Positions 54,827 through 62,995 of a stretch of 64,000 nucleotides of DNA are shown one piece after another. The position numbers were made by a program, and so were the translations under genes. Source of the DNA: Staphylococcus sp. IVB6214 (GTDB lineage Bacteria > Bacillota > Bacilli > Staphylococcales > Staphylococcaceae). Positions within the stretch are counted from its first letter, which is position 1. The number at the start of each line of letters is the position of its first letter. The stretch lies in contig NZ_CP094723.1 in NCBI RefSeq assembly GCF_025558585.1, positions 1 through 64,000 of the forward strand. Direction: 5' to 3'. The notes beneath the pieces were generated by a model that did no database searches, was not told the DNA's origin, and worked only from the letters and a program-made list of their open reading frames with translations.

Positions 54827-56830
54827 ATGTTAAAAGATAATGAAAACTATAATAAAAATGTTAAATCTAACTCTTCTTTTATGGAAGAGTTATTTAATAA
54901 ATTACCCGAATTTTTCACTTCAGAAAAATACGATGATAAAGGGAATTTAATAGAGAGTGCTAAATTCAATTTGGATAAATTTGAACACGCTTTAAAAGAA
55001 TATAATGTTGGTGAGTTATCTAGTGGTTATCAGTTAAATTTTATTGGAAAAAATTATGCTAAAAAACAATCGGGAGAAATTCCTAAATCTGTGATTGTAC
55101 CTGATAAAGATCATAATACTAAACCAATAAATATAAATAGTAAAAATTTATTCTTTACAGGTGACAATTTAGAATTGTTAAGATATTTACAATCAAACTA
55201 TGCTAAGTCTATTGATTTTATTTATATTGATCCACCCTATAATACTAATTCAAATGACTTTGTATATCCGGATAATTTTGATTATAGTGATGACCAATTG
55301 AAAGATATGTTTGAACTTAGTGATGAAGAACTTAAAAGATTGAAGTCTATTCAAGGAAGGTCTACACATGATGCATGGTTAACTTTCATGTATCCAAGGC
55401 TTTATTTAGCAAAAAAATTATTAAAAGATGAAGGCGTAATATTTGTTTCCATAGATGATAATGAGCAAGCAAATTTAAAAATATTAATGGATGAAATTTT
55501 TGGAGAAGGAAGTTTTACTGTTCAATTCATATGGGCAAAGACTTCAACTCCACCTGCTTTATCTAATAAGTCTAGAAGTACAACTGAATATATATTAGTG
55601 TATGAAAAAAATATAAGTTCTAAAAAGTACTTTGGTTCCCTTTTGGATAATGGATCTGTCTCATTGTTAAATGCAAGTAATAAAAAAAGAGAGGTAGTTA
55701 TTCCTGCAAAAAGTGCTAATTTTGGTTTTATTGAAAATGGCACTATCCCTCCAAGCAAGTTCGATAGAATTGAGTTATTAGATGAAGTAAATATTAAAAA
55801 TGGGATAAATGAAAATGAATTTAGAGTTTTTGCACAAATTAGATGGACACAAAAAAAAATAAATGATGAAGTTAAAAATGGAACCTATTTTACTTTTAAC
55901 ACAAAGAATATGAATCCACGTTATCAAAGGTCTCAATCAGAAAGGTTTAAAACTCCCAATACTGCACTTTACAAGGAATTAGATATAGGTACTAATGAAG
56001 AAGCAGTTAAACACTTATCAAAATTAGGTTTTGATAAAATATTTGATTATCCCAAACCAGTTTCACTTGTTAAATATTTAATTAATATGATTACTTTTGA
56101 TAATCCTGAAGCAATTATATTTGATTTTTTTGCCGGTTCAGGCACAACAGCTGAAGCTGTGATGCAATTAAATGCTGAAGATGAAGGCAATAGAAAATTT
56201 ATAATGTGTACTTTGCCTGAAAAAACTTATTTTATTAATTCTAAGGGAGACGAAGTTGCTACTAATGGGGGGATGGCAGCTTATAGAGAGGGGTATAAAT
56301 CTATCGATGAAATTTCGCGTAATCGTATAATACGAGCAAGTGAAAATATAAGACAAGAATATACTAATAAAAATATGGATTTAGGTTTTCAGCATTTCAA
56401 TATTGTTTCACCGAGTCAAGAATCATTAGAAGAAATTGTGTTGGATGGTGATATTCAACTAGATATTTTTGATAACATGATTGATAAATTTTCAAGTGAG
56501 AGTCTGGGATTACAAAGTAATTCATCAGGTTTTGAAACTATATTAACCACATATTTAGTGAGAGATAATTATAGATTTGATGTACCTATAGAAATGAAAA
56601 ACTTTGATGGGATTACAGTTCCTTATATTAATAATCAACGAATATATATTATTACTGATAAATGGAAAACAAAAAATACAAAAGCTCTTATAAATGCCAT
56701 TGGTAAATATGAAATTTCAGTTCAAACTATTGTGATTTATGGATATACAATAGAAATGGAAATACTACGTGAACTTGAAATTGCTTTAAATCAATTAGAA
56801 AATAAAGTTATTATACAAGTAAGATATTAG
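54827..56830 (+). CDS. mod: Type III-like DNA methyltransferase (Mod)
   Basis: 667 residues. The catalytic DPPY (135-138, in [11 protein letters not shown]) comes before the SAM-binding DFFAGSG (433-439), the beta-class order typical of type III Mod proteins, with a target-recognition region in between. It probably methylates adenine at N6. ATG 54827 follows GAGGTCG; an in-frame ATG at 54812 covers that site. First gene of a four-gene operon; res starts 13 bases after its stop. Confidence 0.92.
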
Positions 56831-56843
56831 GAGAATTACAAAA

Positions 56844-61137: not shown

Positions 61138-62995
61138 GATACAACTAGTTGAAGTTAATAATGAATTTGTTTTTGTTGATAGTATAGACAGTGATCTTAC
61201 GAACAGAAAGGTTCATAGAACTTTAAAGAAATTCACAAGTTATTTTTCTGATTTCACTAATTATGTTTTAAAAGCGGATTTATCACATCTTGAAATAGAA
61301 AGATTAGTTTCAGAGCTGAATAAAGCATTAGCTAAAGTATCGAAACCTGATATATTAATAGATAATAATATAAAAAGTTTTATTAGTAAAAATGCTTATG
61401 CTATTAATGAACAAAGAATTGCTGGCTTAACAATTAAAGAAAATGATTCAAGATGGCAAGAAGAACTTTCAAATTTTAATAATGTTATAAATCAAGAGAT
61501 TACAAGACCATTAAAACCTATTCAAGTAAGAGCGAGTTTTTATTTAGCCACCATGAAAAGAGCAGCCAATTTTTCTGTACCTGGAGCTGGTAAAACAGCT
61601 ATGATGTATGGCACATTTGCTTTTTTGTCTAGTGAAATAAAGGGGAAAGTTGATAAATTAATAGTTATTTCTCCAATTAATGCATTTGAAGCTTGGCGTT
61701 CAGAATTTATTGAAGTTTTTCAAGATAAAAGAGAATTACACTTTATGAACCTAAGAGATAAAAAATATAATGATTTAGGTAAAGTACGAACAGATTGGGG
61801 AAGTGCAAATGTCATTGTTTTGAATTTTGAAGCAATACAAAAGTATGTAGGGGTTTTAAATGAACTTATTAATGATAAGACAATGATAGTTTATGATGAG
61901 GTTCATAGGATAAAAGGTACTAATAGTAGCAGAGCAAGTTATGCATTAACTTTAGGTCCTAAAAGTTATTATAGATACGTTTTAACTGGTACCCCAATTC
62001 CAAATAGTTATCAAGACATATTTAACTTCTTAAATATTTTATATAAAGATGAGTATGATACTTATTTTGGTTGGAATGTTGCTGATTTACAAAATCCTGA
62101 TCCTAATGAAATTAATGACAAGTTGAACCCTTTTTTCTGGCGTACAAATAAGAACGATTTGGAAGTGCCCCAAGCAGAAAATGATATTATATTATGTGTT
62201 AAGCCTAGTAATATTCAAATTGAATTAGCAAAAGCGATATACGAAAATGAATCTGGGATACTAGCAATTTATATAAGGTTACTACAAGCTTCAACTAACC
62301 CAGAATTATTGCAAAAGAATATTAACTATAGTGAACTAGGAATGTTGAATGATGAATTAAATTTCGATTTGGATAAAGCATTAAATAAAGAAGAAGAAAA
62401 TCAAGTAAAACAACAAATTTATAATTCTTTTGATTTAAAAAATGTAACTTCTCCAAAATTCGAAAAAGGTATTGAATTGATTGAAAACTTAGTTAGCCAA
62501 GGAAAAAAAGTTCTAGTATGGGGATTGTTTGTAGGTACAATGAATAAAATCAATAAAAGGTTACTAGAAAGTGATATTAATTCAATATTGATTTATGGAG
62601 AAACACCTAAAGAAGATAGGGTAGATATGATCAATAATTTTAGGAATGGAAATGCACAAGTTCTAATATCTAATCCTAATACATTAGGCGAGTCCATATC
62701 TTTACATCAGACAGTACATGATGCAATATATTTTGAATATAACTTTAATTTAACGTTTATGTTGCAATCACGTGATAGAATACATCGTTTGGGATTAAGT
62801 AATAATCAATATACACGATACTATTATTTAATGTCTGAAGGAGATAGAGCTCATAAAGGTTTTATCGATAAAGCAGTTTATAATCGGTTGAAAGAAAAAG
62901 AAGATGTAATGTTAAATGCTATTGATGGAAATACTTTAAAGCCAATGATTGAAGATGATTACTTAGAAGATGTTAAGAAAATTATTATTGAATGA
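61121..62995 (+). CDS. SNF2-family helicase in the type III operon
   Basis: 624 residues of SF2/SNF2 ATPase. Walker A PGAGKT (154-159), DEVH box (259-262), LTGTPIPNS (about 288) and motif VI QSRDRIHRLG near 555 are intact. An N-terminal 130 residues are unassigned. ATG 61121 or 61127 could start it. It is translated from within the end of the ParB-like gene. It would move along DNA or remodel bound proteins; partner is likely Res or the ParB-like protein. Confidence 0.85.
   Translation: MNMKSEIQLVEVNNEFVFVDSIDSDLTNRKVHRTLKKFTSYFSDFTNYVLKADLSHLEIERLVSELNKALAKVSKPDILIDNNIKSFISKNAYAINEQRIAGLTIKENDSRWQEELSNFNNVINQEITRPLKPIQVRASFYLATMKRAANFSVPGAGKTAMMYGTFAFLSSEIKGKVDKLIVISPINAFEAWRSEFIEVFQDKRELHFMNLRDKKYNDLGKVRTDWGSANVIVLNFEAIQKYVGVLNELINDKTMIVYDEVHRIKGTNSSRASYALTLGPKSYYRYVLTGTPIPNSYQDIFNFLNILYKDEYDTYFGWNVADLQNPDPNEINDKLNPFFWRTNKNDLEVPQAENDIILCVKPSNIQIELAKAIYENESGILAIYIRLLQASTNPELLQKNINYSELGMLNDELNFDLDKALNKEEENQVKQQIYNSFDLKNVTSPKFEKGIELIENLVSQGKKVLVWGLFVGTMNKINKRLLESDINSILIYGETPKEDRVDMINNFRNGNAQVLISNPNTLGESISLHQTVHDAIYFEYNFNLTFMLQSRDRIHRLGLSNNQYTRYYYLMSEGDRAHKGFIDKAVYNRLKEKEDVMLNAIDGNTLKPMIEDDYLEDVKKIIIE

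Follow-up and report, generated by a model that had tools for sequence, protein, structure and literature searches.

The DNA considered here (hereafter the window) is a stretch of 64,000 nucleotides, positions 1 to 64,000 of the 2.19-Mb single contig (NZ_CP094723.1) that forms the genome of Staphylococcus sp. IVB6214. Towards its right end lie four genes encoding a type III DNA methyltransferase (Mod), a type III restriction subunit (Res), a ParB-like protein and an SNF2 ATPase. An earlier note had described them as a same-strand operon with gaps of 13 bases (mod/res) and 10 bases (res/parB-like) followed by a 17-base overlap (parB-like/SNF2). A check of the open reading frames (ORFs) confirmed the four ORFs on the plus strand, the positions claimed and this spacing (Table 1). 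As detailed below, the last two genes belong to a module that is wider than this operon.

Table 1. Genes of the operon and staphylococcal cassette chromosome (SCC) attachment sites in the window
Feature	Position	Strand	Remarks
mod, type III beta-class DNA methyltransferase	54827..56830	+	DPPYNT, FAGSGTT, EcoP15I-type C-terminal domain
res, type III restriction subunit	56844..59837	+	SF2 helicase (ETGTGKT, DEPH) and PD-(D/E)XK nuclease (TPD...ETK)
ParB-like protein, 429 amino acids (aa)	59848..61137	+	ParB/Srx-type domain (DGNRRFTAL), helix-turn-helix (HTH) domain, helical C-terminal part
SNF2/SWI2 ATPase, 624 aa	61121..62995	+	PGAGKT, DEVH, QSRDRIHRLG; no nuclease domain found
SCC attachment site GAAGCTTATCATAAATGA, perfect copy	54611..54628	+	left edge of the operon's cassette, about 200 bases before mod
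SCC attachment site, two mismatches	32529..32546	+	3' end of rlmH-like gene; starts the first tandem cassette

The ATG at 54827 is favoured as the start of Mod by the GAGG at 54814-54817, a further in-frame ATG being present upstream at 54812. The ParB-like protein starts with a GTG at 59848, behind the AGGAG at 59837-59841, and its homologues start at about the same point in the alignment. The short gap and the overlap suggest translational coupling. A scan for promoters and terminators gave no excess over shuffled sequences (58 promoter-like sites versus a shuffle mean of 56.0). The operon is more than a chance arrangement, since the identical gene order is seen again in other genera.

Mod matches the Pfam families PF01555 (123.6 bits) and PF18273 (85.6 bits), both over the cut-off, the PADLOC model MTase_III (636 bits) and, in the PDB, chain A of 4zcf (5.7e-64) and also 6k0w. 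Res matches NCBIfam NF012027 with 1203 bits (cut-off 564), Pfam PF04851 and PF19778, and chain C of 4zcf (2.2e-99), the EcoP15I structure. DPPYNT is kept in 31 of the 32 aligned Mod rows, two-gene systems among them, and motif I is variable among the relatives (FAGSGTT, FAGSSTT, FSGSATT and similar). All 27 Res rows keep ETGTGKT, followed by DEPH in 14 and DEPQ in 13; the nuclease motifs PD and E(T/A)K are each kept in 26 of the 27 (one row is gapped). The window therefore holds, adjacent on one strand, a Mod with a type III C-terminal domain and a Res with both an SF2 helicase and a PD-(D/E)XK nuclease. Judged from their sequences, they are an EcoP15I-type type III restriction-modification pair with intact motifs. 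They resemble the Mod2Res enzymes of the EcoP15I type in domains, motifs, gene order and PDB match; the operon differs from these by the ParB-like and SNF2 genes that follow res. Type III enzymes methylate one strand, and their cleavage depends on ATP and on two inverted sites that lack methylation. In several four-gene operons, mod is split or shortened (8619-10530 in locus L141, 8497-10185 in locus L143, and the cassette SCCSH32), possibly by phase variation or by decay of the specificity gene.

The ParB-like protein has no match in Pfam (E 0.1 or better), PADLOC (2023 copy, which holds no model matching it), NCBIfam or PHROGs at the limits used. Its predicted structure matches ParB, Noc and KorB over the nucleotide-binding domain and the HTH domain; in the structural alignment, KorB, with its HTH, ranks first in a tie with ParB and Noc. 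The predicted order, a ParB-type N domain and then an HTH domain, is that of the ParB/Noc/KorB family of CTP (cytidine triphosphate) clamps. Comparison by hhalign with the proteins of the same genome gave E 1.6e-4 (probability 50%) for Noc and E 2.5e-4 (probability 43%) for ParB. A profile search of PDB sequences reached ParB only at E 0.18, ranked after helical chance matches. The nucleotide motifs of the clamp family are GERRxRA and ENxQR. The ParB-like protein has GNRRFTA for the former, the arginines being kept, but does not keep the latter. In a 42-row alignment, R125 and R126 of DGNRR are invariant, as are E165 and L166, and Q169 is nearly so. It also differs from the known clamps by a long helical C-terminal part, by its SNF2 neighbour and by the lack of a Pfam match. 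The earlier note had proposed a ParB/sulfiredoxin-fold protein and an SNF2 helicase: both folds are supported, but the third protein is nearer to ParB, Noc and KorB, with their HTH, than to a bare sulfiredoxin (Srx) fold. Identity as a bare Srx or DUF262 protein was rejected, fold and motif fitting ParB/Noc/KorB better; with respect to the ParB/Srx NTPases of the DUF262/GmrSD type, the motif is DGNRR and not DGQQR, and no Pfam match was found at E 0.1 or better. The named close relatives of the protein are from Staphylococcus and Mammaliicoccus.

The fourth protein matches PF00176 and PF00271, and its two-lobe SF2 core with SNF2-type motifs makes it a member of the SNF2 family; DEVH is kept in all 27 aligned rows. 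SNF2 or SF2 motors, some of them beside methylases, are also found in DISARM, BREX, Dpd and Zorya. Membership of the operon in any of these systems was rejected, the helicase-core matches being weak (at most 39 bits, PADLOC). The SNF2 protein scores only 34 bits against DrmD and 24 bits or less against BrxHI/BrxHII. No DrmA, DrmB or DrmC, no PglZ, BrxC or PglX, and no other component of DISARM, BREX, Dpd or Zorya is among the PADLOC matches listed for the four proteins, which for Mod are 25 of 35.

Recurrence of the operon was first sought by scanning one genome per species (84,980 species), a scan that detects a locus only through either of two short peptide patterns taken from alignment A1. 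It yielded 41 ParB loci. Loci L001-L021, whose ParB identity is at least 40%, have their genes in the order mod-res-ParB-SNF2 and on the same strand, except that the contig of L003 begins within res and so lacks mod; broken genes occur in some of them (L008, L009, L020). Res is directly upstream and SNF2 is next in 21 of 21, so the test that could have refuted a composite system, namely that the last two genes are usually unlinked from mod-res, fails in this ParB clade. By contrast with this clade, no match to mod-res is present in L022-L041, where ParB is followed by SNF2 in L023-L041 and, at the contig end, in L022 as well. ParB-SNF2 is thus a more widespread module, found with or without mod-res, and the composite four-gene system proposed earlier stands as a linkage within one clade. 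In the relatives of ParB and SNF2 from Mycoplasma anseris (L036), both genes look broken under translation table 11, probably because TGA is read as tryptophan.

The four-gene set is also present on plasmids of Lactococcus, Enterococcus, Limosilactobacillus, Lacticaseibacillus and Lactiplantibacillus. Some genes on these plasmid loci are unannotated and were found by tblastn (SNF2 of L179, res of L183 and L186). In the L. plantarum plasmids L183 and L186, ParB and SNF2 are listed and res is not; the annotation of L183 places an IS30 transposase gene inside the res interval. A circular record of 8,755 bp from L. paracasei N1115 (L180) lists only mod-res-ParB-SNF2 and no replication gene, PLSDB gene tables being incomplete and this one perhaps too. 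Near-identical DNA was sought in plasmids and gave no match. Four IMG/VR contigs (L042-L045) hold all four genes. They are not counted as evidence for phages because the ParB DNA of three of them is the same as that of plasmid or genome loci (L045 that of the named L. reuteri plasmid L182, L043 that of L012 and L042 that of L141). Among phage records, two short Listeria contigs without annotation matched at 50% identity, and there were two further matches, both weak and partial.

When the loci entered in the count are pooled, 76 unique ParB loci are obtained, "unique" meaning that the DNA of the match differs, so that several are close kin. SNF2 is the next gene in 69 of the 72 with at least 2.5 kb downstream; the loci were selected by ParB alone, and the ParB and SNF2 references were partly drawn from the loci scored. 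In the remaining three, ParB is a decayed fragment (L096) or the second copy of a tandem (L153, L158). Res lies directly upstream on the same strand in 32 of the 73 loci with at least 600 bases upstream, and L003, at a contig end, makes 33; the other 43 of the 76 have no Res directly upstream. A methylase of the Mod-like or C5 kind, the two kinds covered by this count, is found at 9 kb or less in 50 of the 65 loci with 4 kb on both sides, a count given with no background rate. Among 398 genomes of Bacilli, the ParB profile matches 16 and a search with SNF2 only (E 1e-25 or better) also 16, of which 15 are common. The mismatches are G326, with a ParB fragment, and G079, with the weakest SNF2 match.

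Within its own genus, the ParB profile matches 6 of 84 genomes (G000, which is the genome of the window, G674, G704, G671, G281 and G326). In G674, G704 and G671, ParB is part of a different architecture. The fragment of G326 (L096 7977-8261) has 94 aa, is 86% identical to the window protein and has no SNF2 or Res nearby; it is likely a remnant of a lost operon. In G281, ParB and SNF2 are read in one frame (L095, 1,024 aa), and a similar gene of 987 aa is found on another contig. The value of L095 as strong evidence for a fusion was rejected: a rare frame change in the overlap is equally likely, because the nearest relative is a separate SNF2 protein of 623 aa with 99% identity (P0121).

The relatives of the SNF2 protein differ according to the presence of Mod-Res. 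In a tree of SNF2 rows longer than 500 aa, for which 33 Mod-Res-free loci were supplied, 25 of these 33 rows are long and fused to a phospholipase D (PLD) nuclease domain, versus 0 of the 25 rows beside Mod-Res, the PLD label being assigned by length (>800 aa). PF13091 (PLD) was found in all four long proteins scanned by Pfam, in two of them slightly below the curated cut-off. The extra N-terminal part of these four resembles the N-terminal part of PbeA in PADLOC (about 207-220 bits in the best model), and the motifs HxK and GSxN are present in six PLD-SNF2 examples. The window protein and the PLD-SNF2 protein of L023 differ by the N-terminal nuclease part, because their alignment starts at residue 12 of the former and residue 248 of the latter.

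In this tree, the 25 rows from type III loci, all without PLD, form one clade (SH-like approximate likelihood ratio test, SH-aLRT, 100). The 8 other short rows form a second clade (SH-aLRT 89), with the 25 PLD rows between the two, so that PLD versus no PLD requires two changes. In a second tree, from which L037, L038, L040 and L159 were left out (L037 without a long-branch flag), the type III rows again form a single clade (99); the branch with the 7 remaining short rows on one side has a support of only 48. An approximately unbiased (AU) test on this second tree, picked once the first was known, rejected a single clade for the 22 PLD-fused rows (p 5.8e-6). The ParB tree likewise groups the type III rows in one clade (100), all groups together requiring three changes. 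With a midpoint root, the SNF2 proteins beside Mod-Res arise from within the PLD forms, and the tree reads as one loss of the nuclease as the pair joined Mod-Res, which would become a gain under another root.

Where Mod-Res is absent, the pair has other neighbours. C5 methylases are often nearby (PF00145 in L023, L025 and L028; by tblastn at 26 of the 43 unique Res-free loci), and MutH/Sau3AI-like nucleases (PF02976) occur near the pair in L037 and L173. Further neighbours are McrBC (L173), NOV_C proteins (L097, L098) and a large protein with sigma-70 region 4, whose L172 copy adds an RNA polymerase alpha-CTD domain. In genomes of the same genus, a protein of about 980 aa precedes ParB-SNF2 (L172 4642-7605, L173 4630-7566, L174 4996-7971); the C-terminal region of the L172 copy is similar to an 820-aa protein encoded near some PLD-SNF2 forms. 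The neighbourhood of L172 includes hsdM/hsdS, and that of L173 a C5 methylase besides McrBC and the MutH/Sau3AI-like nuclease.

Seen from the side of Res, the pair is optional. Res proteins above the NF012027 cut-off occur in 9 of the 398 Bacilli genomes and in 9 of 295 genomes of Lactobacillales, 16 different genomes in all, and ParB follows Res directly in only 5 of the 16 (G000, G091, G449, G457, G466). Ten of the other 11 have no ParB or SNF2 relative around Res; in the eleventh (G471), mod and res are broken and there is no ParB match. A 37-row Res tree places 27 rows from four-gene operons together with 3 from two-gene systems (L130, L133, L137) in a single clade (SH-aLRT 100) and leaves the other 7 two-gene rows outside it. 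It requires three changes, which may be one gain and two losses. This tree omits the truncated, broken or duplicate L003, L008, L043 and L140 as well as the plasmid loci L178-L187, and L005 has a long branch.

Pairwise distances between operons were also compared: of the 28 operons entered, the 22 in which each of the four genes had at least 60% of its length were used (L008, L009, L013, L020, L042 and L141 dropped; L004 and L142 of the set share identical ParB DNA). Res-ParB, Res-SNF2 and ParB-SNF2 distances correlate at 0.97, and Mod versus the others at 0.80-0.84; the correlations may be raised by shared host phylogeny, no unlinked control gene being included. Over 58 rows of all kinds, ParB-SNF2 distances correlate at 0.93. 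Between the window and L001 of Mammaliicoccus sciuri, identity is 16-20% over Mod residues 251-400 (counted from 54812), versus 24-64% for the other Mod blocks, 40-94% for Res, 46-94% for SNF2 and 68-100% for ParB. Residues 251-400 are likely the target-recognition part of Mod. Because this part diverges most and ParB least, ParB-SNF2 likely does not read the Mod site.

It should be stressed that the layout is already in print, although unrecognised. The earlier note knew of no named system with exactly these four genes; against this stands SCCSH32 of S. haemolyticus, described in 2014, which has two mod/type III pieces, res, a hypothetical gene of 1,293 bp and a gene of 1,875 bp overlapping it by 17 bases (SHP0100-0104), with a direct repeat on one side and the ccr genes on the other (PMC3900703). 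It is taken as the same layout because order, sizes and overlap agree, the comparison having been made without its sequence. It is printed there as a type III system whose ParB-sized gene is "hypothetical" and whose SNF2-sized gene is a "res subunit" (PMC3900703, Table 1). Plasmid records in the same way annotate the layout gene by gene. Within the open PMC literature, with subscription papers and most preprints outside it, no description of ParB-SNF2 with type III genes was found among the papers listed, judged by title, opening of the abstract and selected passages.

Two other families invite comparison. The m4C type III systems (Eco86II, BspHIV) have a third gene, for a helicase-like ATPase, near mod-res, and more than 500 genomes are reported to show it (PMC8259958). 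Theirs lies 5' of mod whereas the extra ATPase of the window lies 3' of res, and the text of that paper mentions neither ParB nor SNF2. In CglI, NgoAVII and BceSIV, a PLD nuclease depends on a partner ATPase acting on double-stranded DNA, and more than 95 homologues are reported in which PLD and ATPase genes are fused (PMC4267653). These can be likened to the PLD-SNF2 relatives of the pair, but the available sections describe no ParB-like protein. By Pfam, the four proteins of the window all lack a PLD domain and are thus not of the CglI/NgoAVII type. A PLD-SNF2 protein next to a type IIG-like methylase has also been reported on a lactococcal plasmid (PMC6098607).

As possible roles of the last two proteins, the earlier note had named a second effector, a regulator and nucleoprotein remodelling; a motor for Res is favoured here. 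These data lead to a reading, held with about even confidence, in which ParB-SNF2 is a motor module driven by nucleoside triphosphates (NTP) that acts at the cutting step of Res. Mod would mark the host sites and Mod-Res would recognise the unmarked ones, as known for the type III family. The ParB-like protein would load on DNA with a nucleotide, probably CTP, and hand the DNA to SNF2, which would move along the double strand without unwinding it. This motor could strip bound proteins or bring Res complexes together, so that Res would cut more, or cut sites otherwise spared; it might be armed in cis by a fused PLD or in trans by Res. The pair is placed at the cutting step mainly because, in the SNF2 tree, PLD is fused only where Mod-Res is absent. 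Type III enzymes require two inverted unmodified sites (PMC12707154), and in CglI/NgoAVII the PLD nuclease depends on a partner ATPase (PMC4267653); a ParB clamp and an SNF2 translocase could drive Res in a comparable manner. A strict rule that the pair goes with either PLD or Res is contradicted by L150, L151, L172-L174, L097, L098 and L159, which have neither PLD nor Res. More tentatively, and with less confidence than the cutting-step role, the pair could be an unnamed general restriction motor, in which a CTP-gated clamp loads SNF2. It would be passed between modification systems of the type III, the cytosine-methylase and other kinds, with a fused PLD or, as in the window, Res as its nuclease.

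The 43 unique ParB loci without Res directly upstream, and the persistence of the pair in the plasmid L183 with its annotated IS30 gene in the res interval, would also suit two co-travelling systems. ParB-SNF2 would then be a defence effector in its own right, such as a ParB-type nickase gated by a nucleotide, with SNF2 as its sensor. It would depend on the type III genes for no more than their methylation marks or their promoter and would not touch Res; ParB-family proteins have indeed been reported as NTP-regulated nucleases in conflict systems (PMC5512222). Such independence is nevertheless hard to reconcile with the correlated distances of Res, ParB and SNF2 (0.97), with the single PLD-free clade of the SNF2 proteins beside Mod-Res and with the suggested translational coupling, and it is considered unlikely. 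Even less probable is a regulatory role, in which the ParB-like protein would act as KorB or Noc, repressing or delaying res when bound to CTP, while SNF2 would clear transcription or repressor complexes, allowing safe entry of the cassette. The top place of KorB in the structural alignment, HTH included and tied with ParB and Noc, agrees with it, and newly arriving restriction systems do face a problem of timing while they become established (PMC12707154). However, the promoter scan provides no operator evidence, and regulation leaves unexplained both the PLD-SNF2 fusion of the relatives and the position of the pair after res.

Finally, type III enzymes require Mod and Res alone, and two-gene relatives (L130, L133, L137) fall in the same Res clade, as would be expected if this were an ordinary type III system whose last two genes are dispensable passengers adding nothing measurable. 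Passengers would hardly keep their ParB and SNF2 motifs across genera or stay together in 69 of 72 loci, and this explanation is regarded as the least probable of all.

Type III restriction, usually described as two genes, has here a lineage that retains two more with intact motifs, in a staphylococcal SCC cassette and in plasmids and chromosomes of lactic-acid bacteria. These genes have been overlooked in annotation as "res subunit", "DEAD/DEAH box helicase" or "hypothetical protein". If the restriction motor proposed above is real, ParB clamps and chromatin-remodeller-like ATPases would be tied to DNA restriction, and Res in trans versus PLD in cis would offer a clean test of nuclease-motor coupling. 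In its general form, the motor would let type III enzymes cut despite the two-inverted-site rule or the protection of foreign DNA by bound proteins, and it would be, to our knowledge, the first ParB-type clamp serving as a restriction subunit.

From its sequence, the operon looks like part of a mobile cassette of the SCC type. Besides the two sites of Table 1, attachment-site copies with two mismatches each are found at 73566 and 76930 of the contig, whose coordinates are those of the window; the chance expectation for matches in the window is 0.05. The first site of the array ends the presumed rlmH-like gene at 32028-32546. The cassette of the operon (54611-73566) carries what we take to be a ccrA-like gene, a split ccrB-like recombinase gene and a cch-like gene of 594 aa; the ccrB-like recombinase (L161 2196-3832) consists of two ORFs of 367 and 177 aa. 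To the right of the window, a Pycsar pair adjoins site 73566 in the same cassette (contig 72132-73462; L161 9132-10462), with a PycTM-like protein of 192 aa (139 bits) and a PycC-like cyclase of 249 aa (329 bits). The first tandem cassette (32529-54628) encodes a presumed CcrC-like serine recombinase (42383-44059), type I hsdS/hsdM/hsdR genes on the minus strand (45774-51443) and the candidate defence gene PDC-S61 (52779-53528). The gene 5' of mod, an ORF of 330 aa (53555-54547), lies on the far side of the attachment site.

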